Positions 40,195-53,922 of a DNA stretch of 64,000 nt are shown here, piece after piece (the first letter of the stretch is position 1; every line of letters starts with the position of its first letter). Location of the stretch: positions 6,492,001-6,556,000 of the forward strand of contig NZ_CP069396.1 in assembly GCF_016887565.1 (NCBI RefSeq), written 5' to 3'. The stretch comes from Archangium violaceum (GTDB lineage: Bacteria > Myxococcota > Myxococcia > Myxococcales > Myxococcaceae). The translations under genes and the position numbers were made by a program. The notes under the pieces are model-generated. The model made no database searches. It was not told the origin of the DNA and saw nothing but the letters and a program-made list of their open reading frames with translations.

Positions 40195-41037
40195 ATGAAC
40201 GAACAGACCTTCATGAAGTTGATGCAGATCCTCCCCAAGTCCGCGCTGTCCACGGCGGTGGGAATGGCCACGCGCCTGCCCGTGCCGGCTCCGTTGCACC
40301 GGGCGGCCATCAAGACCTTCGCCAAGGCCTACAACGTCGACGTGGCCGAGGCGGAGCACGCCCTGGAGCACTACCCCACGTTCGCCCAGTTCTTCACCCG
40401 CGGGCTCAAGGCCGGCTCCCGTCCGGTCGACCCGGGTGCGAAGGTGGTCGTGTCCCCGGTGGACGGCGCCGTGTCCCAGGTGGGCTACGCCGAGCACGGC
40501 CGCGTGATGCAGGCCAAGGGCATCCACTACACGGTGGGCGAGCTGCTCGGTGACGAGAAGGCCGCCGAGCCCTTCCACGGCGGCGCGTGGACCACCATCT
40601 ACCTGTCCCCGCGCGACTACCACCGCATCCACTCGCCGCTGGGCGGGAAGATCACCGGGTACGCCTACATCCCCGGCGAGTTCTGGCCCGTCAACCCGGC
40701 CTCGGTGAAGAACAAGCAGGCGCTCTTCTGCGTCAACGAGCGGCTCGTCACCTACCTGGACACCGTGGCCGGCAAGTGCGCCGTGGTGAAGGTGGGCGCC
40801 ACGTGCGTGTCGCGCATCAAGGCCGCCTACGACGAGATCCTCACCCACGACGGCAAGCCGGGCAAGGTGCACCGCTACGACACCGCCATCCCCGTGGAGA
40901 AGGGTGGCGAGCTGGGCCGCTTCGAGATGGGCTCCACCGTCATCCTCGTGTTCGAGCCGGGCCGCGTGAAGTGGGACGAGGGCTTCCAGCCCGAGGCCGT
41001 GGTGCGCATGGGCCGGCGCATTGGAGAGATTCCGTGA
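40195..41037 (+). CDS. psd: Phosphatidylserine decarboxylase
   Basis: 280 residues. It converts phosphatidylserine to phosphatidylethanolamine at the inner membrane. The proenzyme cleaves itself at the GST motif FEMGSTVILVFEPG (S247 becomes the pyruvoyl group of the alpha chain). The beta-chain motifs FFTRGLKAGSRPVD, SPVDGAVSQVG and YLSPRDYHRIHSPLGG are present with the catalytic His. Its length and the GST in place of LGST fit the family. GTGA overlap with hisS shows tight packing, although the two reactions are not related. Confidence 0.96.
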   Translation: MNEQTFMKLMQILPKSALSTAVGMATRLPVPAPLHRAAIKTFAKAYNVDVAEAEHALEHYPTFAQFFTRGLKAGSRPVDPGAKVVVSPVDGAVSQVGYAEHGRVMQAKGIHYTVGELLGDEKAAEPFHGGAWTTIYLSPRDYHRIHSPLGGKITGYAYIPGEFWPVNPASVKNKQALFCVNERLVTYLDTVAGKCAVVKVGATCVSRIKAAYDEILTHDGKPGKVHRYDTAIPVEKGGELGRFEMGSTVILVFEPGRVKWDEGFQPEAVVRMGRRIGEIP

Positions 41038-42308
41038 GCCAGAAGGTCAGTGGCGTCAAGGGCATGAATGACCTCCTCCCCGGCGACGTGGAGGTGTGGC
41101 AGCACGTGGAGCGTACCGCCCGGGACATCTTCTCGCGCTTCGGCTACGGCGAGGTGCGCACGCCCATCGTCGAGGACACCGCGCTCTTCGTGCGCAGCGT
41201 GGGCGAGGAGACCGACATCGTCGGCAAGGAGATGTACACCTTCGATGACAAGGGCGGTCGCAGCCTGTCCCTGCGTCCCGAGGGCACCGCTCCCGCGGCG
41301 CGCGCGTACATCGAGCACTCGGTGGGGAACCAGGAGCCGCTCACGCGCTGGTTCTACATGGGCCCCATGTTCCGCTACGAGCGGATGAAGACGGGCCGCT
41401 ACCGGCAGTTCCACCAGATCGGCGCCGAGGCGTACGGCTCGAAGGAGCCCGCCCAGGACGTCGAGGTGATGGACATGGTGGTGCAGCTCTTGCGGCAGCT
41501 GGGGCTCTCCGACGTGTCGCTCAACATCAACTCGCTGGGCGATGACGCGTGCCGGCCCGTGTACCAGGCCAGGCTCGTGGAGCACCTGCGCGGGCACGCC
41601 AGCGAGCTGTGCGCCGATTGCCAGAAGCGGCTGGAGCGCAACCCGCTCCGGGTGCTCGACTGCAAGAACGAGCGCTGCCAGCAGATCGCCGGCGCCGCGC
41701 CCAACATCCTCGAGTCACTGTGCGAGCCGTGCCGCGCGCACTTCGACGAGGTGAAGCGCAAGCTGGACGCGCTGGAGATCAAGTACGTGGTCAACCCGCG
41801 CATCATGCGCGGCCTGGACTACTACACGCGCACCACCTTCGAGTTCATCGCCGCGCACCCGGTGCTGGGCACCGCCAGCACCGTGGGCGGAGGCGGCCGC
41901 TACGACAAGCTGGTCAAGAGCCTCGGTGGGCCGGACGTGCCCGCGGTGGGCTTCGGCCTGGGGTTGGACCGGCTCTGCCTGCTGCTCAAGGAGAGCGGCC
42001 AGCACTTCGGCCGGCCGACGGATCTCTTCATCGCGGTGGCGGACGAGGGCTCGGCGGACGTGGCCTTCACCCTGGCCAGCCGGCTGCGCCGCGAGGGCCT
42101 TCGCGTGGAGTTCGACACGCGCGGCGGCAGCCTCAAGAGCCAGATGAAGCGCGCCGACAAGGTGGGGGCCATCTTCGCCCTGGTGATCGGCGAGGCCGAG
42201 CGTCAGAGCGGTCAGGCTCAGCTCAAGCCCATGGCCGGGGGTGAGCCCATGCCCGTGCGGCTCGACGAGCTGGCCAACACCCTGCGCACCCGGCTCACCC
42301 CCGCCTGA
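41034..42308 (+). CDS. hisS: Histidyl-tRNA synthetase
   Basis: 424 residues. It charges tRNA-His. Class II motif 2 (FRYERMKTGRYRQFHQIGAEAYG) and motif 3 (AVGFGLGLDRL), plus the histidine-specific HisA-type segment (GGGGRYDKLV), are present. The C-terminal anticodon-binding domain begins near DLFIAVADEGSADVAF. GTG 41034 overlaps the psd stop by GTGA. A hairpin at 42355-42386 about 47 bp after the stop probably ends the transcript. Confidence 0.97.
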   Translation: MSQKVSGVKGMNDLLPGDVEVWQHVERTARDIFSRFGYGEVRTPIVEDTALFVRSVGEETDIVGKEMYTFDDKGGRSLSLRPEGTAPAARAYIEHSVGNQEPLTRWFYMGPMFRYERMKTGRYRQFHQIGAEAYGSKEPAQDVEVMDMVVQLLRQLGLSDVSLNINSLGDDACRPVYQARLVEHLRGHASELCADCQKRLERNPLRVLDCKNERCQQIAGAAPNILESLCEPCRAHFDEVKRKLDALEIKYVVNPRIMRGLDYYTRTTFEFIAAHPVLGTASTVGGGGRYDKLVKSLGGPDVPAVGFGLGLDRLCLLLKESGQHFGRPTDLFIAVADEGSADVAFTLASRLRREGLRVEFDTRGGSLKSQMKRADKVGAIFALVIGEAERQSGQAQLKPMAGGEPMPVRLDELANTLRTRLTPA

Positions 42309-42439: not shown

Positions 42440-42847
42440 ATGCCGCCAGACTGGACGCACGGACGTCGAGCCGAGGGCCTGTGCTGGATTCCCATAAAGG
42501 GAGACAGCATGTGGCCCTCGTTGCGTTCGGGGGACGTGGCGGGCGTGGAGCCGCTGGCGGAGGCACCCCGGCCGGGTGAGGTCGTGCTCGCGCGTTTCGC
42601 GCACGCCCTGGTGGTGCACCGCGTGCGCCGGTGTGACGGCGAGACGTGCGTGCTGCTCGGGGACAACGTGCTGGCGGAGGATCCGCCGCTGCCGCGCGCG
42701 CGAGTGCTGGGGCGGGTGAGCCTGGTGCGCCGCGGTGACGAGGTGCTCGCGCCGGGCCGGTGGGACCGGGGGCCGTTGCGCCGGGGCCGCTGGCGGCTGG
42801 TGGTGAAGCGCTGGCTGGCGGCACTGCTCGGACGGAGGCGCGCATGA
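42440..42847 (+). CDS. S24/S26 (signal-peptidase-like) peptidase with Ser-His dyad, no membrane anchor
   Basis: 135 residues. The nucleophile motif KGDSMWPSLRSGDVAGV contains S23. The later VVHRVRR motif has His (H60) where bacterial signal peptidase I has Lys, as in the SipW/Sec11 branch, and the closing GDN motif (LLGDNVLAEDPPLPR) is intact. No transmembrane helix is present; the C-terminus is basic and amphipathic (RWRLVVKRWLAALLGRRR). It heads a six-gene cassette and overlaps the PqqD-like gene by ATGA. In that setting it could trim the leader of the peptide encoded at 46692 (inference). No Shine-Dalgarno precedes ATG 42440. Confidence 0.82.
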   Translation: MPPDWTHGRRAEGLCWIPIKGDSMWPSLRSGDVAGVEPLAEAPRPGEVVLARFAHALVVHRVRRCDGETCVLLGDNVLAEDPPLPRARVLGRVSLVRRGDEVLAPGRWDRGPLRRGRWRLVVKRWLAALLGRRRA

Positions 42848-43134
42848 GCTTCCGCGCGGACGGCATTCCCCGCAGGCGCGAGGGCGCGGACGGCCAGCGC
42901 TTCGGCGAGGACTTCGTGGTGATGGACCCGGAGGGGCGGACGCTGCGGGGCCTCAACGAGACCGCGGCGCGCGTCTGGGAGCTGAGCGACGGGAGTCGAA
43001 CCGCGCGGGACATCGCCGGCGTGGTGGCGCACGAGTACGGCGTGGAGGTGGAGCGGGTGCTCGGGGACTGCCTGCGCTTCCTCGAGTGGCTCGCGGGACG
43101 TGGGCTGTTGGACGCGGAGGAGGTGCTTCGATGA
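42844..43134 (+). CDS. PqqD-like protein (RiPP recognition element)
   Basis: 96 residues. PqqD folds (a three-helix, three-strand winged-helix-like unit) hold the leader of ribosomal peptides for modifying enzymes. The family pattern is clear: FVVMDPEGRTLRGLNETAARVWELSDGSRTARDIAGVVAHEYGVEVERVLGDCLRFLEWLAGRGLL. The gene overlaps its neighbours on both sides by ATGA, placing it firmly in the cassette. Paired with an HPr-kinase-like gene (46894), it recalls the kinase/PqqD sets that I know from unassigned systems. No radical-SAM gene accompanies it here. A partner for the 63-residue peptide is the natural guess. Confidence 0.85.
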   Translation: MSFRADGIPRRREGADGQRFGEDFVVMDPEGRTLRGLNETAARVWELSDGSRTARDIAGVVAHEYGVEVERVLGDCLRFLEWLAGRGLLDAEEVLR

Positions 43135-43607
43135 GAGCGCTCGCGGTGGTGTCGGTGGCCTTGTGGCTGGCGGCCTGCGACGAAGGCGTTTCGGAGCCGC
43201 CGGGCTCGGGGCCCGTGGTGCCCGCCGAGGTGTCGTGGAATGGAATCACCCCGCCGGTGCGGTCCACGCCGCCGCTGCCTCCGCGGGTGGGCACGGCGGA
43301 CGTCACCTACGTGCCGGCGGGGGCGCGCGGCCTGTCCGAGGTGACCTCGGTCGAGGTGCGGCTGCGCGTGGGAGGCATCGTCGGCTCGGCGTCGGTGGAC
43401 GTGGAGCTCCTCGCCCCCGGGCCCTCGGCGTACGAGAGGCGCACCCGGACGGTGGTGGCGATCCCGACCGAGGAGCGCGAGCTCGTCTTCAGCCTGCCGG
43501 TGGCGGGGACGAACATTCCCATCCACGGACTGGGTGGTACCTGGGAGGCGCGCTTCTTCATCGACGGCGCGCCCCTGACCACCACTTTCTTCACCCTGGA
43601 GCGTTGA
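43131..43607 (+). CDS. Small lipoprotein of the peptide cassette
   Basis: 158 residues. The signal VVSVALWLAAC has its lipobox Cys at ~16. The mature protein is beta-rich with an N-terminal Pro/Gly linker (EPPGSGPVVPAEVSWNGITPPVR) and looks like a single Ig-like domain (VRLRVGGIVGSASVDVELLAPG, FSLPVAGTNIPIHGLGGTWEARFFIDG). ATG 43131 overlaps the PqqD-like stop. The large secreted protein gene begins 8 bp later, so the two envelope proteins may form a complex. I do not recognise the family. Confidence 0.72.
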   Translation: MRALAVVSVALWLAACDEGVSEPPGSGPVVPAEVSWNGITPPVRSTPPLPPRVGTADVTYVPAGARGLSEVTSVEVRLRVGGIVGSASVDVELLAPGPSAYERRTRTVVAIPTEERELVFSLPVAGTNIPIHGLGGTWEARFFIDGAPLTTTFFTLER

Positions 43608-43615
43608 AGCCCGCC

Positions 43616-46600
43616 ATGAACGCACGCCCGCTCGCGCTCCTGCTGCTCCTGCTGCCCGCCACCGCGCTGGCCCAGAACGCGTGGACCGTCACGCCCGTCG
43701 ACGGCACCGCGGTGATGGGGGAGATCTCCTCGCTCGTCTTCGAGGTGCGCAACGCCTCCACCAGCACCCGCCCTCTCAACGAGATCAGCCTCGCGGTCGA
43801 CGGTGCCGCCTATGACGTCGACGGAGGCGATGCCCCGGCCGGCTGGACGGTGAGCACCATCGACCGCAAGGAGCGCCGCATCACCTATACGGCGAGCGGT
43901 TCCTGCACCCCGGGGCCGCTGGGGCTCGCGCCGGGCACCGCCGCGCGCTTCACGCTGCGGCTCGTGGGCCTCGCCGCCAACGCCGATGCCACCGATGCGT
44001 TGGTGGGCGGGAACAACCCCAACAAGTCGAGCATGGCCCGTGACTCGTGCTCCGGCACCACGTTCAACGGAGACCCGAGCACGGCGAGCTGGAAGCGCGC
44101 GGGCCTGTCCGCGTCCCTCACGGTGCTGCCGCGCACCCTCCAGCTCGGGGGCGTTGTCTCCGTGCAGCTCCAGGTGGTGAATCGCTCCCTGGCGACCCAG
44201 GGCAACATCACCCTGAGCGGCCCGGGGGTGGTGGGCGGTGCGTCCTTCAACCAGACGGTGGCCTTCTCTCCGGCCTCGCTGTCGCTCGCGCCCGGTGCCA
44301 CCGGGGCCTTCACCGGCAAGCTCCAGTCCACGGGGGAGGGGACCGCTGTCTTCCAGGCCTCGGCGGGCAACGGCACGGTGAGCACCGCGACGACCTCCTC
44401 GCTCCAGGTGATCGTCAGCAGCTTTCCGGCGCTCCTCGAGGTCCTGCCCTCCAGCATCGCCCCGGGCGACACGGTGACGGTGCGGCTCGTGGTGTCCAAC
44501 CCGTCCACGAGCACCTACCGGAACGTCGTCCCCAGCGCGCCCACCTTCACGGGGACGGCGGTGCCCTCCCTGCTGAGCAGCCCCATGCCCGCGAGCGCCG
44601 CGTCGCTCGGACCGGGCTCGTCCGTCTCCTTCCTCTGGAAGTACCAGATGAACGGGCCCATTGGCTCCACATTCCAGTTCGGCGGCCAGGCGGACGCCAC
44701 GCGCGACGGCGCGCCCATCTCCACGGGCACGGCACTCTCCGCTCAGGGCCGCATCGTGGAGCACCGACTCTCCATCGCTCCGTCCTCCGTCATCTCCGGG
44801 GCGAGGAACCGGACGCTCCAGTACACGATCTACAACGGCGGCACGGTGGAGATCCGGAGCGTGAGGCTGCTCACGCCGGACGCGACCTTCTTCACCGTCT
44901 CCCCGTCCGCGCCCTTCGCCAGCGACACCAGCGGTTGGACCCAGTCCGCCACCAACAAGGGCTACACGTGGACGGCCCTCTCCGGGCAGCCCGGCATCAC
45001 TCCGGGCACGCAGAAGACCTTCTCGATCGACTACGCGTCCTTCGGCACCGTCTCCAGCGACACGGCCCTCACCCACCAGTTGGAGCTGACCCAGGTGAGC
45101 GGCTCCACCTCCAACACCCTGCGCGTGGACGCGCCGGTCTCGCTCTTCGTCAACCGGATGATGCCCGAGGTCGACTCGCTGGTGGCGCTCGCCGGACCTG
45201 GCCGCAACACGCTGCTGTGGACCAACCCGTCCGAGCATGACGGGGTGCTCGTGCTGCGCGCCGAGGGCCTCGCCCCCAACACCGCCCCCGAGCCCGGCCG
45301 CCGGTACGCGGTGGGGGAGACGCTCGGCAACGCCACGGTGGTGTACTCGGACGAGCTGAGCGTGGCCTCCACCTACGCGGATACCGGCGTCACCGACGGC
45401 ACCGTGTACTTCTACCGCGTCTACAACCATGACCCGCTGTACCGGTACTCGCCCGGCAACGCGCCGCAGTCGCTCGGGCTGAAGTCCGTCCCCACCAGCC
45501 GTGGAACCGGTCAGCCCCTGTGGTGCTACAGCGTGGGCTTCTCCACCCTGCAGCAGCCCATCACCGAGCTGGGCGTGGGCATCTTCACCGCCAACACCTC
45601 GGGCAGCGTGACGGCCAACCTGACGAACACCTCCACGCCCGTGGCCGATGGCTCCGAGCGCTGGCGTCCGGTGCGGCTCCAGGGCTCCGTGCAGAGCCGC
45701 TTCCCCATCGTCCCGCTCTACAACCGGCCCGGGCAGTACATCCTCACCGGAGACCAGGCGGGCTTCACCTACGCCATCCGCACCGAGACCGGCGAGCTCC
45801 TCTGGCGGAGCACCTCCTCGCTCGGCACCATCCAGTCCTTCCCGGTGGTGCAGCTCTTCAACACCGGCAGCACCAATCAGGCCTACAAGGATGCCTTCCC
45901 CGGGAAGGATCTCGCCTTCTTCGCCACCCGGCTGAGCACTGGCACCACCAACCAGGTGGTGGCGCTCGAGGCCGCCACCGGCGCCCCCGTGTGGACGTAC
46001 TCCCCGGGCGATCTCGGCATGGTGAGCGGGGGCATGCTGATCGATTACACGACCAACCGTCTGTACATGGGCGCTCGCTCCAACGGGGGCTCGCTGGCCT
46101 CGCTGCGCGTGCTCGACAGCCTCACGGGGACGGAGCTGGCCCGGCTGTCCCTCGGGGACATCGACTTCGGCATCATCCGGTATGGCACGAACCTGGCGCT
46201 CGTGACGAACAGCGACGGCAAGGTGTACGGCATCGACATGACGGCGATGACGGTCGCCTGGAGCGCGTCGGTGGCCTCCCGGCCGTCGGCCTCGGTGCCC
46301 GCGTTCTCCCAGTACGCCCGGCCGGTGGGTGGCGGCTTCGTCGTGAGCATCCTCGGCGCCACCGACGCGCTGGGCCGCGTGGAGCGCTGGAGCGTCACCA
46401 CCGACGCCACGGGCGCCACCTCGGTGACCCGGGTCTGGTCCACGCCCATCCCGAGCCCGTCCGGCACCTTCTCGTTCACGAGCGGAGGCGTGCAGCGCCT
46501 CTACGTCGGAGGCAAGGACGAGAAGGTGCACGAGCTGGACTACACCACCGGCGTGGACGGCAAGCAGGTCTCCCTGCCCGGTGCGCTGGCCGTCGGCACG

Positions 46601-46684
46601 CCCACGGTGGACAGCACCGTGTCGCGCCTCCACGTGGGCACACAGGACGGCCGCATCTGCGCCTTCCCGGTGCCGTTCCCCTGA
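43616..46684 (+). CDS. Large secreted protein: repeated Ig-like domains plus PQQ-like beta-propeller
   Basis: 1022 residues with a signal peptide (RPLALLLLLLPATALAQ). The N-terminal ~500 residues are a string of Ig/CARDB-like beta domains rich in Ser and Thr (SFPALLEVLPSSIAPGDTVTVRLVVSNPSTSTYRNV and similar). The second half (~620-1022) has short repeats such as TGDQAGFTYAIRTETGELLWRS, VVALEAATGAPVWTYSPGD, and SDGKVYGIDMTAMTVAWSAS. These match the tryptophan-docking repeats of quinoprotein (PQQ-like) propellers. Whether a cofactor is bound cannot be told. ATG 43616 is 8 bp after the lipoprotein stop, and the peptide gene follows 7 bp later. It could be the surface receptor, carrier or target of the cassette's product. 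Confidence 0.8.
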   Translation: MNARPLALLLLLLPATALAQNAWTVTPVDGTAVMGEISSLVFEVRNASTSTRPLNEISLAVDGAAYDVDGGDAPAGWTVSTIDRKERRITYTASGSCTPGPLGLAPGTAARFTLRLVGLAANADATDALVGGNNPNKSSMARDSCSGTTFNGDPSTASWKRAGLSASLTVLPRTLQLGGVVSVQLQVVNRSLATQGNITLSGPGVVGGASFNQTVAFSPASLSLAPGATGAFTGKLQSTGEGTAVFQASAGNGTVSTATTSSLQVIVSSFPALLEVLPSSIAPGDTVTVRLVVSNPSTSTYRNVVPSAPTFTGTAVPSLLSSPMPASAASLGPGSSVSFLWKYQMNGPIGSTFQFGGQADATRDGAPISTGTALSAQGRIVEHRLSIAPSSVISGARNRTLQYTIYNGGTVEIRSVRLLTPDATFFTVSPSAPFASDTSGWTQSATNKGYTWTALSGQPGITPGTQKTFSIDYASFGTVSSDTALTHQLELTQVSGSTSNTLRVDAPVSLFVNRMMPEVDSLVALAGPGRNTLLWTNPSEHDGVLVLRAEGLAPNTAPEPGRRYAVGETLGNATVVYSDELSVASTYADTGVTDGTVYFYRVYNHDPLYRYSPGNAPQSLGLKSVPTSRGTGQPLWCYSVGFSTLQQPITELGVGIFTANTSGSVTANLTNTSTPVADGSERWRPVRLQGSVQSRFPIVPLYNRPGQYILTGDQAGFTYAIRTETGELLWRSTSSLGTIQSFPVVQLFNTGSTNQAYKDAFPGKDLAFFATRLSTGTTNQVVALEAATGAPVWTYSPGDLGMVSGGMLIDYTTNRLYMGARSNGGSLASLRVLDSLTGTELARLSLGDIDFGIIRYGTNLALVTNSDGKVYGIDMTAMTVAWSASVASRPSASVPAFSQYARPVGGGFVVSILGATDALGRVERWSVTTDATGATSVTRVWSTPIPSPSGTFSFTSGGVQRLYVGGKDEKVHELDYTTGVDGKQVSLPGALAVGTPTVDSTVSRLHVGTQDGRICAFPVPFP

Positions 46685-46691
46685 GCCCTCG

Positions 46692-46883
46692 ATGACGCGC
46701 GATCGCACCCCCACGCCTGAAGGAACCCCGCCCGCGTTGGCCTCGTCCGAGCCGGTGCCGGCCGTGCGTGCGCGCGTCTATGAGCCGCCCGCGGTGCTCT
46801 GGGAGCAGCCCTTCGTCGCGCTCGCGCAGGTGTCCAACAAGGACTACGCCTGTGAGCCGGGTGCGTGCGAGGACGTCCCGTGA
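46692..46883 (+). CDS. Candidate ribosomal peptide precursor (63 residues)
   Basis: A Pro/Glu-rich N-terminal leader is followed by YEPPAVLWEQPF (30-41), reminiscent of the Y-x2-P aromatic patches that RRE proteins bind. The short C-terminal segment VSNKDYACEPGACEDVP has two Cys (54, 59) suited for cyclisation, oxidation or thioether formation. It starts 7 bp after the large secreted-protein gene, and its stop overlaps the SD (GAGG) of the HPr-kinase-like gene. The length, leader/core split and PqqD partner make a modified peptide plausible. Not in any family I know. The boundary between leader and core is not defined. Confidence 0.65.
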   Translation: MTRDRTPTPEGTPPALASSEPVPAVRARVYEPPAVLWEQPFVALAQVSNKDYACEPGACEDVP

Positions 46884-46893
46884 GGTTCCTCCG

Positions 46894-47697
46894 TTGTCCG
46901 GGGTGACACTCGCGTTGGCGGGATGGACGGTGTCCGTCGAGTCGGAGGAGCCATCGCTGGAGGAGCTGCTCCTGCGGGCCTTCGCGGCGTTCCGTACCTG
47001 CGAGCCGGCTCGGGCGCACGTGCGGGTGCTGCGCCCGGAGGCTCCGAGGCCCGCGCCCGACGTGCGTTGCCTGCCCGAGCCCCGGCCGGTCTCCGGAGGT
47101 GGCCTGCGGGTGGAAGGGGAGGACTACGTCGCGGACATCGCGCCCGAGGGCCGGAGCGCCACGGTGACGGGCGAGGGCCGCTTTCCGGTGGACACGGTGT
47201 TGAAGGTGATGCTCGCGGGCGAGCTGGCGAGGCGCGGGGGCCTGTTGGTGCACGGGGTGGCGGTGGAGCACCTCGGGCGCGCGGCGCTCTGGACGGGCCC
47301 ATCCGGGGCGGGGAAGAGCACCCTGGGAGCGCTCTGGGCGGGGGCCGGAGGCACGGTGCTGACGGACGAGCTGGTGGCGGTATGGCCCGAGGCGAGGGGT
47401 TGGCGTGCGGCGGGGACGCCGTGGAACGTGGGGGTTCCCCGCGAGGCCGCGCTGTGCGTCGTGGGGACATTGGGTTGGGACACGGCCTCGCGCTGGGAGC
47501 CGGTGGGCGCCGGAGAGATTGCCCGGGTGTTGCTGCTCAACGCGCTCCTGTCCGAGGCCTCCGCCGCTGGACGTCGCCACCTGATGGGCGCGGCGAGCCG
47601 TCTGCTCGGAGGCGTGGAGACGGCCCGGCTCGTCTTCGCACGGGATGCGTCCGCGGCGGAGGTTGTGCGCGCGAGGCTGGAGGGGGCGAAGCTCTGA
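46894..47697 (+). CDS. HPr kinase-like protein (P-loop)
   Basis: 267 residues. The Walker A GPSGAGKST lies near residue 136, and the surrounding GGLLVHGVAVEHLGRAALWTGPSGAGKSTLGALWAG and VLTDELVAVWPEARGW segments match the HPr kinase/phosphorylase C-terminal fold. The N-terminal part is variable. It may phosphorylate a peptide or a protein partner rather than HPr. TTG 46894 is chosen because GAGG lies eight bases upstream (46882-46885); GTG 46903 is an alternative. The first bases sit inside the precursor's stop region, so the two are translated together. In lasso and other peptide clusters similar kinases modify the precursor, which is the reason to link it to the 63-residue peptide. Confidence 0.82.
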   Translation: MSGVTLALAGWTVSVESEEPSLEELLLRAFAAFRTCEPARAHVRVLRPEAPRPAPDVRCLPEPRPVSGGGLRVEGEDYVADIAPEGRSATVTGEGRFPVDTVLKVMLAGELARRGGLLVHGVAVEHLGRAALWTGPSGAGKSTLGALWAGAGGTVLTDELVAVWPEARGWRAAGTPWNVGVPREAALCVVGTLGWDTASRWEPVGAGEIARVLLLNALLSEASAAGRRHLMGAASRLLGGVETARLVFARDASAAEVVRARLEGAKL

Positions 47698-47710: not shown

Positions 47711-49051
47711 TCAGCCCCGGTGGCGCTCGGCCGCGCGGTAGAGCTGCGTGAGGGAAGAATCCAGGAGAGACTGGCACGACCGCATGTAGTGGTGGGCCCG
47801 GGCAAAAGGAAACCACACGCGGTTGCCGACGAGCACCTGGGCTTCCTCTAGCTTCTTGCGCGGTATCCACTGCCCTCCCAGGTTCCGCACCAGAACCTCG
47901 CCCAGGTAGCCGCCAATGGCGGGCACCGCGTGCGCGTCGATGTGCTGCCGCTCGAATATCCTCGGGAACTCCTCGTGCCAGAACTGGTAGTCCACATCCG
48001 TGAGTGACTCGGGTGTCCCCTTGAGCACGGAGGTCACCTTCGTGTGCAGCAGGGCCACGAGGCGCTCGGCGAGGTAGCCGTAATGCTCGAGGGCTCGCTC
48101 CGGGTCCTCTACGTCTGAGGGGAGGGCGGAGTCGGCGGAGCGCCATTCCTCTGGATCCGGCGGTTTGTACGAGTTGAGCTCGCCGATCTTTCGCTGGCGC
48201 TCATGAATGGCGACGCTGTCCACGACGCGAGAGAGAAGCGGGACCACGTCTGGGTGGAAGCAGGGCTCTACGGGGGCGAGCGTCGCGCTGCGCTCGCGCA
48301 AGGTACGAAGCACGGAGCCGTAGTCCAGGTCTGGCCGGAGGTGGACATGTGCCCGGGCCTGGGCAACGCGCGCTTCCTCGCGGGCGAAGTCCGCGGCGGT
48401 GGGCCACGCCACCAGGAGGACGGAGCCGTTGGCCAACCCCTCCACCCGGTGGGCCGGCGTGGACAGCATGCGCTGGCGGCCCACCGTCTCCACCAGCTTC
48501 GGGCCGAAGACGTTGAGCCAGGACACCTCATAAATCTTGTCGAACCCGTCCCTTCGCGAGGTCCTGTCATCGCGACCGAAGTCGGGAGCGCCCGACAACT
48601 GATCGTCAGCCAGACTGTGGGCCGAGGCATGGGAGACCGGGTAGTGAGAGGCCCACGCGCGCACCATCTCCACGAATGGGATACAGCGCTCGGCCTCCGT
48701 GAAGAAGGAGAGCGGCCGCACCTCGAGCAAGATGTCCAGTCTGGGAGGGGTGGTCGAGAAATAGAGCCTCAGCGTCATGCGTAGACCGGGCCACTTCGTC
48801 CGGTAGAGCCCGATGGTCGTGACGCGTTCGCCGTGCTTCTCCTCCAGCGCCTTCCAGATGGCGGCGCGGGCGTATGGACGTTGCCGCTTGCCTTCGACGA
48901 CGTCCGGCATCCACTCGCCCGCGTACTCCTCGAGCGCTTGAAACAGGGGACCGAGTTCGCTCTCCAGTGCCGCCCGCATGTCGAAGGCCCCATCGAAGGT
49001 GAGCAGGAGACTGTCCTCCGCCTTCATGTCGTGAAACTCCAGCACCTTCAT
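47711..49051 (-). CDS. Probable cytosolic immunity protein for the adjacent toxin
   Basis: 446 residues without signal peptide or transmembrane segments, not recognised with certainty. A beta-rich N-terminal half (LLLTFDGAFDMRAAL, TTIGLYRTKWPGLRMTLRLYFST) precedes a helical C-terminal half. The ATG at 49051 overlaps the toxin stop (ATGA at 49048-49051), the arrangement usual for toxin-then-immunity pairs in myxobacteria. The codon use is less GC-rich than in housekeeping genes. It faces the HPr-kinase-like gene tail to tail, with 13 bp between. Function by context only. Confidence 0.65.
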   Translation of the reverse strand: MKVLEFHDMKAEDSLLLTFDGAFDMRAALESELGPLFQALEEYAGEWMPDVVEGKRQRPYARAAIWKALEEKHGERVTTIGLYRTKWPGLRMTLRLYFSTTPPRLDILLEVRPLSFFTEAERCIPFVEMVRAWASHYPVSHASAHSLADDQLSGAPDFGRDDRTSRRDGFDKIYEVSWLNVFGPKLVETVGRQRMLSTPAHRVEGLANGSVLLVAWPTAADFAREEARVAQARAHVHLRPDLDYGSVLRTLRERSATLAPVEPCFHPDVVPLLSRVVDSVAIHERQRKIGELNSYKPPDPEEWRSADSALPSDVEDPERALEHYGYLAERLVALLHTKVTSVLKGTPESLTDVDYQFWHEEFPRIFERQHIDAHAVPAIGGYLGEVLVRNLGGQWIPRKKLEEAQVLVGNRVWFPFARAHHYMRSCQSLLDSSLTQLYRAAERHRG

Positions 49052-51216
49052 TGGAACAGCACCTCCACTCCCGGAACTTCTTCCTCGACTGCGGCCACGG
49101 CCCTCTTCAGTTCTTTTACTTCCTTGGGCATCAGGGGGCCGCCCTCGTAGACGAGACGAACCCTTGGGACCCGTACCTTGCTGCCCCCGCGGAGAAGCGG
49201 CTGGAGGGAGTCGCGACGGATGTCCAGCGTCTCACCGTATTTCCGCAGAGCTTCCCTCGCATCCGCAATCATCTGCGCATCCAGGGCTGGACCTTTCACT
49301 CCCGAGAGATCGCGGCTCTTGAAGCTGAATGTCTCCACGCGCCGAGGCTGTCCGGCGCGCTCGCTCTCCTCGATGACGAGCACATCCGCATAGCGCAGGC
49401 CGGGGTCCTCCTTCCTCACGCCCACATTCGTCTCGATGCGGGGCTTGTCGAAGTCCCCGAGAAAGCGGCGCTCTGCCCGAGGCAACTGTGCGTCGGCCTC
49501 CAGCAGTTTCACCATGATGCGCTCGAAGGCCAACCCCCGGGCGAACCACCCCCGCATCTGCTCGTAGGCCTCCCATGGCAGGGGACCCTTGGCGGCCTTG
49601 CCCTCCATCACCTCGTGGAGGCGCTTCTCGTAGTATTCGACGTACTCGCGCCAGCGTGGATTACCTCGGGCCTCGGGCGGCGGAGCGTCGAGGGAGGGAC
49701 GCTGCTTCTCCAGCACACCCACGTCCTTGGGCAGGCGCGGGCCCGTGGACTCGAACTCCACCGCCGAGAGTTTTGCTTCCACCACCTCGGGCGTGAGGCC
49801 CGCCTCCTTGTCCACCAGCGAGGCCAGGCTGCCAGGGCGCTCCACACCATGAGCCTCCTTGGAAGAGGGTCCTCTCCTCCCCGCGGAGGAGCCTGTGGCC
49901 CCGGGCCTGGCCCTGGACATCAGCGGCCGTGCCTTGGTCACATCCCCCCGCGCCTCGTATAGGGCCAGCGCGGCGTCCGCTCCGCCCAAGGAGACGAAAC
50001 GGCCCGCCTCTCGGCTGGCTTGTAGATACCGGGCCAGCTCCCGCATGCCGTTCACGCCCAACAGCCCTTCCAACCGCCACGCTGTCTCCTTGAGGGCCCG
50101 TAGGCGCAGCTCCATTGCCTCGAGGCCGGTGAGGACCGGTGCGCCTCGGGCCTCGGTGAGGTAGCGCATGCCCTTTCCGCCTGCGTAGATGGCTACCAGC
50201 AGTGCCGCTGGCGCCAGCTCGCGCGTGGCCTGCTCGTACTTGCCCTGCGTCAGCGAGTACGCCCCATGGCCCGTCCCGGCCAGCAGGCCGTAGAAGCCCA
50301 GCGGCACGCCGAAGGTGAGGTGGTCGAAGCCGCCCAGCACCACGTTGCCTGCCGAGAAATGCTGCTCCGCCCACTTCTTCTCCGCCTCGTCGAGGGCCTC
50401 CTGGTACTCCGGCGGCAGTTGGCCTCGTATGGTGGAGAAGGCGAAGGCTGCCCCGTCACCGCTCATGGGTGAGCTGGAGAGGGCGTCTCTGCCAGCTCGA
50501 GCAAGGCCTCGGCCCACGTCGCTCATTTCAAAGCCCCGGTCCGGACGGGCCGTGGGTTTCAGGCCCCGCTTCTCCAGTGCCGTCTGGAATGCGGGCAGGA
50601 ACTCGAGAGTCTCCGCCAGCCGCTTGTCTTGGGCCAGGAGGGAGACAATCTCCCTCAAGTCGTCATCATGGGCCGAGTTGACGATGAAGAGGGCGAGCAC
50701 CTCGGCCCTGAGGGTTCCATGATGCTCGGTGGCCTCCACGAGGAAGGAGGTGCGCTTGCGGTTGAGGAGGCTGGCGGCATCCTCGCGCAGTGTACCCTGG
50801 GCACCGAGTCGCACGGCCTGCCAGCCGTCCAACGCCCCCACCAGGCGGGGCATGTCCACGTGCTCCTGCAGCGCGAGGAATTCCGCGGGCGAGGTGCATG
50901 TGAGGAAGGGGGCAAGGAGTGCCTCCCTGTCGCCGGAGGAGAAATCGGGCCAGCCTGGAGGCACGGCCTCACCTCCGCAGGAGGGTGGGGCTTGGGTGGC
51001 AGGGGGCGTCTCGCCCGTGCTCGCCAGGGCGGCGTCCAGGCCCAGCCCGAGCCCCGGCGCTCGCAACGTGGAGAAGGCGCGCGGGCCCTCGGAGTTTCTC
51101 CTGCCGGGTTGCGGCGCCAGCGTGACGCAACCGCTCGTCAGCAGCGCGGCCCCCAGAAGCAGCGCCGTCCACCTGTGCGCCCGGGCATGGATCCATTCGA
51201 GGAGCTGGCGCCGCAT
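49048..51216 (-). CDS. Large lipoprotein, polymorphic-toxin-like, with REase-like C-terminus
   Basis: 722 residues. A lipoprotein signal (ALLLGAALLTSGC) is followed by a long helical N-terminal region, a pair of hydrophobic segments (FGVPLGFYGLLAGTGHGAYSL, LAPAALLVAIYAGGKGM) and a linker rich in Arg, Ser and Gly. The C-terminal ~150 residues contain RYADVLVIEESER, then VETFSFKSRDLSG: a D...xxK pair resembling PD-(D/E)xK nuclease cores. Myxobacterial toxins of this kind are exchanged between cells through outer-membrane contact. ATG 51216 is chosen (GAGG upstream). The nuclease call is tentative. Confidence 0.7.
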   Translation of the reverse strand: MRRQLLEWIHARAHRWTALLLGAALLTSGCVTLAPQPGRRNSEGPRAFSTLRAPGLGLGLDAALASTGETPPATQAPPSCGGEAVPPGWPDFSSGDREALLAPFLTCTSPAEFLALQEHVDMPRLVGALDGWQAVRLGAQGTLREDAASLLNRKRTSFLVEATEHHGTLRAEVLALFIVNSAHDDDLREIVSLLAQDKRLAETLEFLPAFQTALEKRGLKPTARPDRGFEMSDVGRGLARAGRDALSSSPMSGDGAAFAFSTIRGQLPPEYQEALDEAEKKWAEQHFSAGNVVLGGFDHLTFGVPLGFYGLLAGTGHGAYSLTQGKYEQATRELAPAALLVAIYAGGKGMRYLTEARGAPVLTGLEAMELRLRALKETAWRLEGLLGVNGMRELARYLQASREAGRFVSLGGADAALALYEARGDVTKARPLMSRARPGATGSSAGRRGPSSKEAHGVERPGSLASLVDKEAGLTPEVVEAKLSAVEFESTGPRLPKDVGVLEKQRPSLDAPPPEARGNPRWREYVEYYEKRLHEVMEGKAAKGPLPWEAYEQMRGWFARGLAFERIMVKLLEADAQLPRAERRFLGDFDKPRIETNVGVRKEDPGLRYADVLVIEESERAGQPRRVETFSFKSRDLSGVKGPALDAQMIADAREALRKYGETLDIRRDSLQPLLRGGSKVRVPRVRLVYEGGPLMPKEVKELKRAVAAVEEEVPGVEVLFQ

Positions 51217-51324
51217 TGCCAGCCGCCTCAGTCGCTTCCCGAAACAACGGCCGGGGTGGGTGTCGGCGTCATGGCTGCCAGTCTGTTGCCACCGCAATGC
51301 ACCGCGCAAGCCTGCCTGAGAAAC

Positions 51325-52245
51325 TCATCGCGGAATCGCCACCTTCGGGATGCTGATCGAGCGGGGTCCGTCCTCCCGAAGCATCACGGTGATGTCTCCG
51401 ACAGGCTCTCCACTTCCGGCGTCCGCCTCCACCACCACCAGACGCCGCTCCTTCGGTGGGATGGCACCCTCCTGCCAGAGCCGTATGCCCGGCAACTTCG
51501 CCCCCGTGGCATCCACCAGCGCCGCGTCAGCTGCCGTCCAGGGTTCCGGACTGTCGTTGCGCAGCCATACCTCCACCGCCACCCGGTAGGTGGAGCGATA
51601 GCTGGTGCCCCTGAACACCGAGAGCATGCCCTCCGTGTATCCGATGAGTTCCTTTCTGAAGTCCTGGGCGCGGATGCCATCCTTGCCCATCGCCCTGCTG
51701 GCGATGAGCCTCCGCATCCCCCCCGGATCTCCACACTCGATACTCAACTGCTCGAATCGATGCTGGAGCCGCTCGAACTCGTTCCGCAGTTGCTCGTTCC
51801 TGGCGCGTTCCTGCTCCATCTCATGCTGGAATGACTCGCGGGTCCGCTTGTCGCGGTACACCTCCACCTGGTGCGCCGCCTGTCCCGAGTGAGCCACCAG
51901 GATGAAGGTGACTCGACCCTGGACGCTCCCGTCTCCGAACACAGCCGTCAGCCGGAGCCGTTCCCCAGGTGTCATATCCACCGGGGGGATGATGCTGATG
52001 CTGGTGCGGCTGCGCGTCACCTCCATGAAGCGCACCTCGTCTTGCAGATCCACGACGACGGGGACGTCGAAGACGAAACCCGTCAGCAGACCCGGGCTGA
52101 CACAGATCTCGTATGTGCCAGCTGTCAGTGACAGTTCGATGCGCTGCACGCTCTGGCAACTCGGAGCAGCAGGGGCCGGTTGCACAACGGGTGCGCTTCG
52201 AAGCAATACCAGAGCCAGGATGGAGATGGAGCAGGGAGGGAGCAC
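51325..52245 (-). CDS. DUF2381 family protein
   Basis: 306 residues. A signal peptide (SISILALVLLRSAPVVQPAPAAP) is followed by beta-rich halves split by a coiled coil (~140-175: ESFQHEMEQERARNEQLRNEFERLQHR). The segments EICVSPGLLTGFVFD, VEVYRDKRTRESFQ, and YRVAVEVWLRN are typical of DUF2381, a family I know from myxobacteria, often beside Ser/Thr kinase genes as here. Function not established. It lies 18 bp downstream of the kinase gene's stop and probably belongs to its transcript. Confidence 0.85.
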   Translation of the reverse strand: MLPPCSISILALVLLRSAPVVQPAPAAPSCQSVQRIELSLTAGTYEICVSPGLLTGFVFDVPVVVDLQDEVRFMEVTRSRTSISIIPPVDMTPGERLRLTAVFGDGSVQGRVTFILVAHSGQAAHQVEVYRDKRTRESFQHEMEQERARNEQLRNEFERLQHRFEQLSIECGDPGGMRRLIASRAMGKDGIRAQDFRKELIGYTEGMLSVFRGTSYRSTYRVAVEVWLRNDSPEPWTAADAALVDATGAKLPGIRLWQEGAIPPKERRLVVVEADAGSGEPVGDITVMLREDGPRSISIPKVAIPR

Positions 52246-52263
52246 GGAGCGCGGTCTCCTGGC

Positions 52264-53922
52264 CTAGTTGAATGTGTATGACGCCACGACGGTGACGCTG
52301 GGGCTGATGTTGGGATTCCTGGCCGTACCGCCTTCCATGGGCAATACGCCCAGAACGCCGTTCTCGTACACCTCCAGGCAGATCGGCACGACCTCTCCGC
52401 TGGCGAGACGCGCCTCGGTGAATCGGGCGTAGACCCGCTCCTTCCCGACGAAGAGCTCCCCGGAGAATATCGTTCCGTCCGGTATCCCTCCCCAGGGCCC
52501 GATGTTCATCGCGGAGACAGGGCCCGGCTTCGCGGACATGACCATGGGTTTATCGAAGGGAGGGAACAGCGCGCCGTGCACTTCTCCGAAGCGGATATCG
52601 AATCGCTTGAACGTCTCGGCCGAGCCGGGCGGGCACGTGGTCGGGGCAGGGGGACGGAGCGGCGGGCCACTCGCGCAGGCGGTACCCACGCAGATCAGGG
52701 CGGTGGTCAGGATGCGGTTCTTCTTCATTTCGGGTTCCTCGCTGGTCGTCGCGCTGGCGACGGGCGCGGGGGTAGGTGACTTCCGCGGTTCCGCGCCGTG
52801 CACAACTTCTCCCGTCACCTCGGGGAGCGCTATTTCCTGGCGAGGAATGGCCTGGTGCGGAGGGAGGGGGGGAGGAGACGTGGAACGTTGGACGGTGTGC
52901 CAGGAGAGCACGCTGGTCGCCACCAGGACCGTGGTGAGGACGAGCCCCGCGATCCATCTCGGCCTGGAGGTCCGGCGCGCGGGTGCGGCCGTGGCTCGTT
53001 TCCCGGGGCGTCCGTCACCGGCGAAGAGCGGCACGCTCCAGGCGGCATCCGCCAGGGCCAGGAGCTCCACCAGCGCGCGCTCGAGTGCCGTGGCGTCCAC
53101 GTACCGGGCCTCGGGGGCCTTCTCCAACATGCGCAGGCACAGCCGGCTCAGCGCCAGGGGAACGCGCGGGTTGCGCTCGTGCGGAGGGACCGGGTTCTCC
53201 TGGAGGATGGCGAGCATCAGATCCGGACGGCTCCGGTCCCCGAAAGGGAGCTCGCGCGTCAGCAGGCAGTAGAGCGTGACGCCCAGGGCCCACAGGTCGT
53301 CTGCCGGCCCGGCCGGGTAGTGCTCCCCCTCCCACGCCCGTGCGAAGCGCACCACGTCGGGGCTGCGGTACTCGGCCGTCCCCGGAGGGAGCCGCATCGT
53401 CAGGCGCGGCGCGCCCTCGTATCCGGCCGCGCCGAAGTCCACCAGCACCGGTTGCCCATCCGCCTCGCGCATGAGGATGTTGGCTTCCTTGATGTCCCGG
53501 TGCACCACTCCGGTTTCATGCACGTCCGCCAGGGTGCGCGCGAGCGGCAGCAGCACCTGGGTCACCAGCTCGAGCGCGGACGGGTTCTTCCCCTGGGCCC
53601 ACACGTCCAGGGGCTCCCCCTCGATGAGCTCCAGGGCCAGGACCAGGAAGCGAGGCTCCTCGTCCGGCCAGAAGCCATAGCCGTGGAATTCCACCACGTT
53701 CGGGTGACGCCACACCCGGCGCAGGGTGTCCACCTCCCGGTCCCCTCGCGGGTCCATGGGGACCAGCTTGATGGCGAAGGGGTGCTCGAGCCGCCTGGCG
53801 CGATAGACGGTGCCGAAGCTGCCGGAGGCGAGCTTCCCCTCGATGATGAAGCCCGCCACCTCCGTTCCGGGAGACAGGTCCTGCCAGGATCGCTCACGTG
53901 ATTCATCGCTTCCGTCTTGCAT
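52264..53922 (-). CDS. Ser/Thr protein kinase fused in frame to a lipoprotein-like domain
   Basis: 552 residues. An active-type Hanks kinase (~20-290) has K52, HRDIKEAN (D143) and DFG 162-164, followed by one transmembrane helix (~323-341). After a Pro/Glu linker, residue 399 is a Met that begins a second lipoprotein signal (MKKNRILTTALICVGTAC) and a small beta domain. That ATG (52726-52728) has GAGGA seven bases upstream, so it can be translated on its own. Thus either a fusion protein or two overlapping products exist. ATG 53922 has GGAGG eight bases upstream. DUF2381 follows. Such kinase-tail domains are common in myxobacteria. Confidence 0.85.
   Translation of the reverse strand: MQDGSDESRERSWQDLSPGTEVAGFIIEGKLASGSFGTVYRARRLEHPFAIKLVPMDPRGDREVDTLRRVWRHPNVVEFHGYGFWPDEEPRFLVLALELIEGEPLDVWAQGKNPSALELVTQVLLPLARTLADVHETGVVHRDIKEANILMREADGQPVLVDFGAAGYEGAPRLTMRLPPGTAEYRSPDVVRFARAWEGEHYPAGPADDLWALGVTLYCLLTRELPFGDRSRPDLMLAILQENPVPPHERNPRVPLALSRLCLRMLEKAPEARYVDATALERALVELLALADAAWSVPLFAGDGRPGKRATAAPARRTSRPRWIAGLVLTTVLVATSVLSWHTVQRSTSPPPLPPHQAIPRQEIALPEVTGEVVHGAEPRKSPTPAPVASATTSEEPEMKKNRILTTALICVGTACASGPPLRPPAPTTCPPGSAETFKRFDIRFGEVHGALFPPFDKPMVMSAKPGPVSAMNIGPWGGIPDGTIFSGELFVGKERVYARFTEARLASGEVVPICLEVYENGVLGVLPMEGGTARNPNISPSVTVVASYTFN

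Follow-up and report, generated by a model that had tools for sequence, protein, structure and literature searches.

We propose that a six-gene cassette of Archangium violaceum encodes a phosphopeptide RiPP pathway of Myxococcota that resembles the linear polyphosphorylated peptide (LPP) pathway of Bacillota, a reading that we consider rather likely. It builds on the genes themselves, their conservation and co-occurrence, the spacing of motifs in the precursor, and conserved active-site and binding residues. In the initial annotation of the window (the whole 64,000-nucleotide stretch of DNA that was analysed, from a genome of 13.2 Mb in a single contig), the cassette had appeared to be centred on a precursor without a known maturase. 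That view is most likely mistaken. A discrete recognition element (RRE), an SpI-like peptidase, an HprK-like kinase and a YxxP precursor together form the core of the LPP pathway, in which the HprK-like kinase is the maturase (PMC13381572), and a maturase is therefore probably present here as well, namely the HprK-like protein. A search of the literature for this gene set in myxobacteria found nothing.

Organization and inheritance of the cassette

A fresh reading of the DNA recovers all six frames, and the genes, their positions and their close packing agree with the initial annotation (Table 1), the junctions being 4-bp overlaps or gaps of 8, 7 and 10 bp. The HprK-like gene opens with a TTG, for which the GTG at 46903 is a possible alternative. 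Family-model searches returned zero matches for the peptide and the lipoprotein. A scan found no sigma-70 promoter or terminator, a result that is uninformative in this GC-rich genome.

Table 1. The cassette and its flanking genes, in window positions
Feature	Position	Strand	Basis
hisS, fixed upstream neighbour, outside the system	41034..42308	+	Neighbour in 23 loci; named from sequence
S24/S26 (SpI-like) serine peptidase, proposed leader peptidase	42440..42847	+	Pfam Peptidase_S24, conserved motifs
PqqD-fold RiPP recognition element (RRE), discrete	42844..43134	+	Pfam PqqD, PDB sequence matches
Short lipoprotein, lipobox LAAC	43131..43607	+	Sequence; ortholog in nearly every cassette
Secreted 1022-aa protein: putative N-terminal Ig-like part, C-terminal PQQ/BamB-like beta-propeller	43616..46684	+	Signal peptide, PQQ_2
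63-aa precursor peptide	46692..46883	+	Conserved motif, profile matches, LPP spacing
HprK-like P-loop kinase, proposed maturase	about 46894..47697	+	Invariant motifs, weak HprK matches
miaA	54090-54989		Follows cassette closely in most relatives

The order of S24/S26, PqqD, peptide and HprK-like genes recurs in other myxobacteria, where it had been suggested to look for it: among 44 loci compared by tblastn, more than 20 read hisS, S24, PqqD, lipoprotein, propeller, peptide, HprK. Downstream lies miaA, in some loci immediately and in others beyond a small number of inserted genes; the window is of the latter kind, with genes of the opposite strand at 47711-53922. Chance falls far short of explaining the shared arrangement, given that this order recurs in so many loci and that the peptide block is under coding selection. 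Of the relatives that have a name, the closest is an Archangium MAG (locus L032; kinase 75%), and loci L032-L035 represent the genera Archangium, Corallococcus (L033) and Pyxidicoccus.

Searches of 195 Myxococcota genomes with the peptide, the propeller and the kinase were compared genome by genome. The initial annotation had staked its peptide on being conserved wherever the other genes are, and the peptide, together with the propeller, is indeed present in every one of the 53 genomes that carry a close HprK-like homologue (a strong match, E below 1e-20). Propeller orthologs occur in 61 of the 195. Peptide, propeller and kinase are all missing from G136-G138, that is, from three of the five congeners of the window genome. 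From this joint presence and joint absence it follows that genomes either retain the complete unit or lose all of it. In almost all carriers, a peptide profile built from 16 sequences has a single match per genome. The cassette is vertically inherited and fixed at one chromosomal address in many myxobacteria. In one fragmented genome (G157), loci L113 and L114 hold peptide, propeller and lipoprotein together without an adjacent kinase, and L114 has PqqD on the opposite strand. The propeller of L040 is split into two or more frames, and the HprK genes of G081, G046 and G040 contain single in-frame stops; these reflect either decay or sequencing errors.

A precursor with a conserved block and a variable tail

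There is a real gene behind the 63-residue frame. Across 23 distinct peptide sequences, divergence in a 31-codon block amounts to 0.10, 0.10 and 0.24 at codon positions 1, 2 and 3, and this block is under coding selection. The N-terminal 20-30 residues are variable and rich in Pro and Ala. They precede a block that is almost invariant in Myxococcaceae, Y-x-x-P-x-[VI]-[LVA]-W-E-Q-x-F-V-A-L-A-Q-x-S, and after it comes a short tail which in most relatives has two Cys around Pro-Gly at variable spacing. The most frequent tail type is CNIPGESEC (CTIPGESEC in Corallococcus L033); the window has CEPGAC, and CIPGQDPRC, CTEPGSGPNC and others are found elsewhere. Since the tails differ between lineages, CEPGAC is variable and not the constant part. 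The initial annotation had singled out CEPGAC; the broader picture of a RiPP-like precursor with a conserved leader and a lineage-variable C-terminus, tied to PqqD, HprK and S24 genes, is borne out.

In the window peptide, the proposed RRE-binding motif is Y30-x-x-P33-x-V35-L36, with A45 at +15 and Ser48 at +18 from Y30. By analogy with LPP, cleavage would occur between A45 and Q46, Ser48 would be the phosphosite and the core would be QVSNKDYACEPGACEDVP; a further core type is QISQCNIPGESECTP. Position Y+18 is Ser or Thr in 33 of 34 distinct peptide sequences, including those of the distant loci L062 (PLT-AAS) and L110 (PAG-QVT). Two peptides have Thr in place of Ser, and the one from L056 has Val at Y+18 and Ser at Y+19. 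The residues A-L-A at Y+13 to Y+15 form an SpI-type cut site, A45 lying in the classical A-x-A context of signal peptidases. The distant peptides of L059 and L062 have Thr at Y+15, as does LppA.

Comparison with LPP and other peptide pathways

LPP pathways (LppA/B/S/K/N/D) are held by their authors to be confined to Bacillota (Nat Commun, 20 May 2026; PMC13381572). In these systems, the discrete RRE LppB binds the YxxP leader; the HprK-like maturase LppK adds one to four phosphates to core Ser3 and refuses Thr at the phosphosite of LppA; the SpI-like Ser-His-Asp peptidase LppS cuts after leader T-1, helped by the RRE; and an NTP transferase and an MsbA-like exporter also belong to the core genes (PMC13381572). 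The LPP consensus, YxxPxVLxHQxIxFETxxS, has its phospho-Ser at Y+18 and its cut after Y+15 (PMC13381572). Aligned with it, the Myxococcaceae peptides match in register at Y, P, V/I, L, Q and S and do not match at H, F, E and T. Composition alone would give at least three matches among the eight further consensus positions, those beyond YxxPxV, with a probability of about 0.006. The two systems share a discrete RRE, an SpI-like Ser-His-Asp leader peptidase, an HprK-like kinase and the lack of a macrolactam cyclase. Their precursors also have in common a YxxPx[V/I]L leader, with Ser at Y+18 and a cut-site region at Y+15.

What is new relative to LPP is the phylum, Myxococcota as opposed to Bacillota; a cassette that is fixed and vertically inherited outside capsule loci, whereas LPP genes show patchy transfer; a short core with a Cys pair; and the constant lipoprotein and Ig/propeller partners. 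The Myxococcaceae cassette also lacks two LPP genes: no MsbA-like exporter was found in or adjoining it in the loci read, and the NTP transferase, absent from the window cassette, occurs only in outgroups. Against an LPP-like reading stand these two missing genes, the weak HprK-like family scores, the Thr or Val at Y+18 of some peptides, a lasso RRE that scores slightly above LppB, a kinase model too poor to use, and the restriction to Bacillota drawn by the LPP authors (PMC13381572).

Other known systems share fewer elements with the cassette. Phosphorylated lasso peptides of the paeninodin type likewise have a discrete RRE, a YxxP/WxxP leader motif and an HprK-like kinase. However, neither the asparagine-synthetase-like lasso cyclase nor the transglutaminase-like B2 protease is found among the cassette genes or their neighbours as read, and the proposed phosphosite is near the start of the core, whereas that of paeninodin-type peptides is a C-terminal Ser. 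Radical SAM/SPASM RiPP clusters also pair a PqqD partner with a short Cys-containing precursor, but the cassette has no radical SAM gene, and no close relative was found in 40 genomes of the family. HprK-rel-A/B and SynChlorMet systems (NCBIfam TIGR04352, TIGR04355, TIGR04249, TIGR04248) combine an HprK-like protein with a PqqD-like chaperone, but their partner genes are different, and they were rejected because scores fell far below the curated cut-offs (26.6 of 200; 17.4 of 125; 17.8 of 100). PQQ biosynthesis was likewise discarded, the PqqD equivalog TIGR03859 reaching 24.9 bits against a cut-off of 46 and the cassette having no PqqE-like gene.

Binding and catalytic residues

The PqqD-like protein scores above the Pfam PqqD cut-off (59.5 bits). 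Its two best matches among PDB sequences are the lasso RRE TbiB1 (5v1u) and the LPP RRE LppB (9x8z), with LppB second at E 0.0046 and TbiB1 scoring slightly better. In LppB, D70 hydrogen-bonds the leader Tyr and Y60 belongs to the first pocket (PMC13381572). An ungapped alignment places the leader-contact residues N33, Y60, D70 and F74 of LppB at N38, Y65, D75 and F79 of the window RRE, and none of N38, D75 and F79 varies among 25 orthologues.

The peptidase (Pfam Peptidase_S24, 44.1 bits, above cut-off) has the catalytic-type residues Ser23 (in GDSM), His60 and Asp75, and the corresponding motifs GDSMWP, HR[VL] and GDN are found in 23 of 23 loci. The kinase scores below the Pfam cut-off (Hpr_kinase_C, 11.9 bits). 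Its motifs H120-G-V, G135-PSGAGKST and D158-E159 nevertheless align with HPr kinase in a PDB search, itself a weak match, and HGV, the P-loop GPSGAGKST and DE are kept in all 25 orthologues, with variation at the second residue of the P-loop. AlphaFold2 models of the kinase (pLDDT 44.6) and of the propeller protein (44.0) are too poor to use because the three-sequence alignments behind them are too shallow.

Radical SAM enzymes in distant relatives

In the outgroup locus L062, a PF14907 NTP transferase, S24, PqqD, a YEPPAIAWDEAFEPLT-AAS peptide, propeller, lipoprotein, HprK and a radical SAM/SPASM enzyme occur together, and four of the five LPP core genes are therefore present there. L110 similarly holds a propeller, lipoprotein, NTP-transferase-like gene, YEAPAVAWEEDFEPAGQVT peptide, HprK, radical SAM and PqqD. 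A radical SAM/SPASM gene lies next to HprK in the distant Myxococcota cassettes L062, L072 and L110, as assigned by Pfam, and in L144, L145, L147 and L150, as assigned by similarity.

Might the peptide be modified by an enzyme encoded elsewhere, for instance a radical SAM enzyme acting in trans, so that the HprK-like protein would provide a secondary mark or regulation? The neighbourhood of radical SAM/SPASM and HprK genes in other families points in this direction, as do the conserved Cys pair, which suggests a second chemistry, and the Cys-rich cores that fill the peptide slot in some lineages (L131-L133, L137). We nevertheless judge such a scheme unlikely. No close relative of the distant cassettes' radical SAM enzyme was found in 40 Myxococcaceae genomes at E ≤ 1e-25, so the enzyme is absent there rather than merely unlinked, and an unlinked maturase of this kind was rejected. 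Moreover, the complete genome G034, which has the cassette, gives zero matches to it at E ≤ 0.001, and the SPASM proteins of the window's own genome are weakly related to the distant enzyme.

Sets of PqqD, HprK, S24 and radical SAM genes occur in other Myxococcota families (L145, L147, L144, L150, L072), and several carry YExP peptides with Cys/Gly-rich tails, such as MSICKGGTSAGPFGPGCGCRGGGS in L145; they likely constitute a wide unexplored RiPP group. In one genus-level lineage (L131-L133, L137), peptides with WxAPxVxS-type leaders and cores rich in Cys and Gly, for example VLLCSSGTPYVCEGGYCCDWAPDCRGDCTGG, occupy the slot that follows the propeller, so that slot and leader type are kept and the core is new. 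An S24-like gene is nearby in L131-L133; HprK and radical SAM are absent from the stretch read in all four.

Secreted partners and a paralogous cassette

The propeller protein scores above the Pfam cut-off for PQQ_2 (34.7 bits), and its profile has zero matches among PDB sequences at E ≤ 0.01. The window's own genome contains a paralogous (type II) cassette, L068 (G000:C1:2547094-2564094), found also at L060, L061, L063, L069-L071 and L143. It comprises PqqD, a 1900-residue Ig-like and FG-GAP propeller protein with a lipoprotein signal visible in L071, a peptide of 45-60 residues (e.g. MRPEPKQPLPKKPYRPPRVRSERIIVPDLFQPTNCDPFGDPRPECL; the YRPP peptide of L068 ends in two Cys), and an HprK-like protein. 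It also encodes an S24-like protein, which carries an additional domain at its C-terminus. Lipoprotein and propeller are separate genes in type I and fused in type II. The chief argument for a functional connection of peptide and propeller is that the two travel together twice, in type I and in type II; it is an argument from linkage.

The secreted partners also bear on the idea that the peptide is a small phosphorylated regulatory or structural subunit inside the cell, carried by PqqD and switched off by the peptidase. Phosphorylation by an HprK-like enzyme is regulatory chemistry in the case of HPr, there is no exporter, and a single copy that is fixed in each genome, always at the same chromosomal address and strongly conserved within genera, would suit such a role. 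Yet the secreted partners are constantly present, the type II cassette, built on the same plan, has a secreted partner too, and the split into leader and lineage-variable core, together with the RRE-type leader motif, is characteristic of RiPPs; we thus regard an intracellular subunit as quite improbable. It is very improbable that a radical SAM RiPP pathway has decayed here and left a cassette that persists without a function: radical SAM and NTP transferase are missing relative to the outgroups and isolated genes are broken (the propeller of L040; HprK of G081, G046 and G040), but the peptide is under coding selection, retention is all-or-none in 53 genomes and active-site residues are invariant.

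Proposed pathway and implications

How might an LPP-like pathway operate in Myxococcaceae? Reasoning from LPP biochemistry, we picture three steps, in which the PqqD-fold RRE would bind the precursor via Y30xxP33xV35, the HprK-like kinase would phosphorylate Ser48 (core position 3), possibly several times, and the RRE would then present the precursor to the S24/S26 Ser-His-Asp peptidase for cleavage after A43-L44-A45. The product would be the core QVSNKDYACEPGACEDVP, 18 residues long, with two Cys that may be joined in a disulfide. In a fourth step, for which gene linkage is the basis and which we put forward tentatively, the product might act at the cell surface together with the secreted Ig/propeller protein and the lipoprotein, as ligand, cofactor or cargo.

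The constant tie to two secreted proteins suggests an unrecognised use for such peptides, and a link of a secreted Ig/beta-propeller protein and a lipoprotein to such a peptide pathway is undescribed as far as the literature was searched. Conceivably, though with some doubt on our part, Myxococcota harbour a family of RiPP-type cassettes, with PQQ-type and FG-GAP-type paralogues in one genome, in which the modified peptide is not a free product but serves a giant secreted Ig/beta-propeller protein as its cofactor, its ligand or its displayed tag.

If the LPP-like reading is correct, the LPP pathway would extend beyond Bacillota and would be nearly fixed in large parts of Myxococcaceae, among them Corallococcus and Archangium. 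The cassette would then represent a very small system, consisting of precursor, adaptor, kinase and peptidase, for phosphorylation as the sole RiPP modification, and its constant secreted propeller would be the first concrete candidate partner for a peptide of the LPP class.
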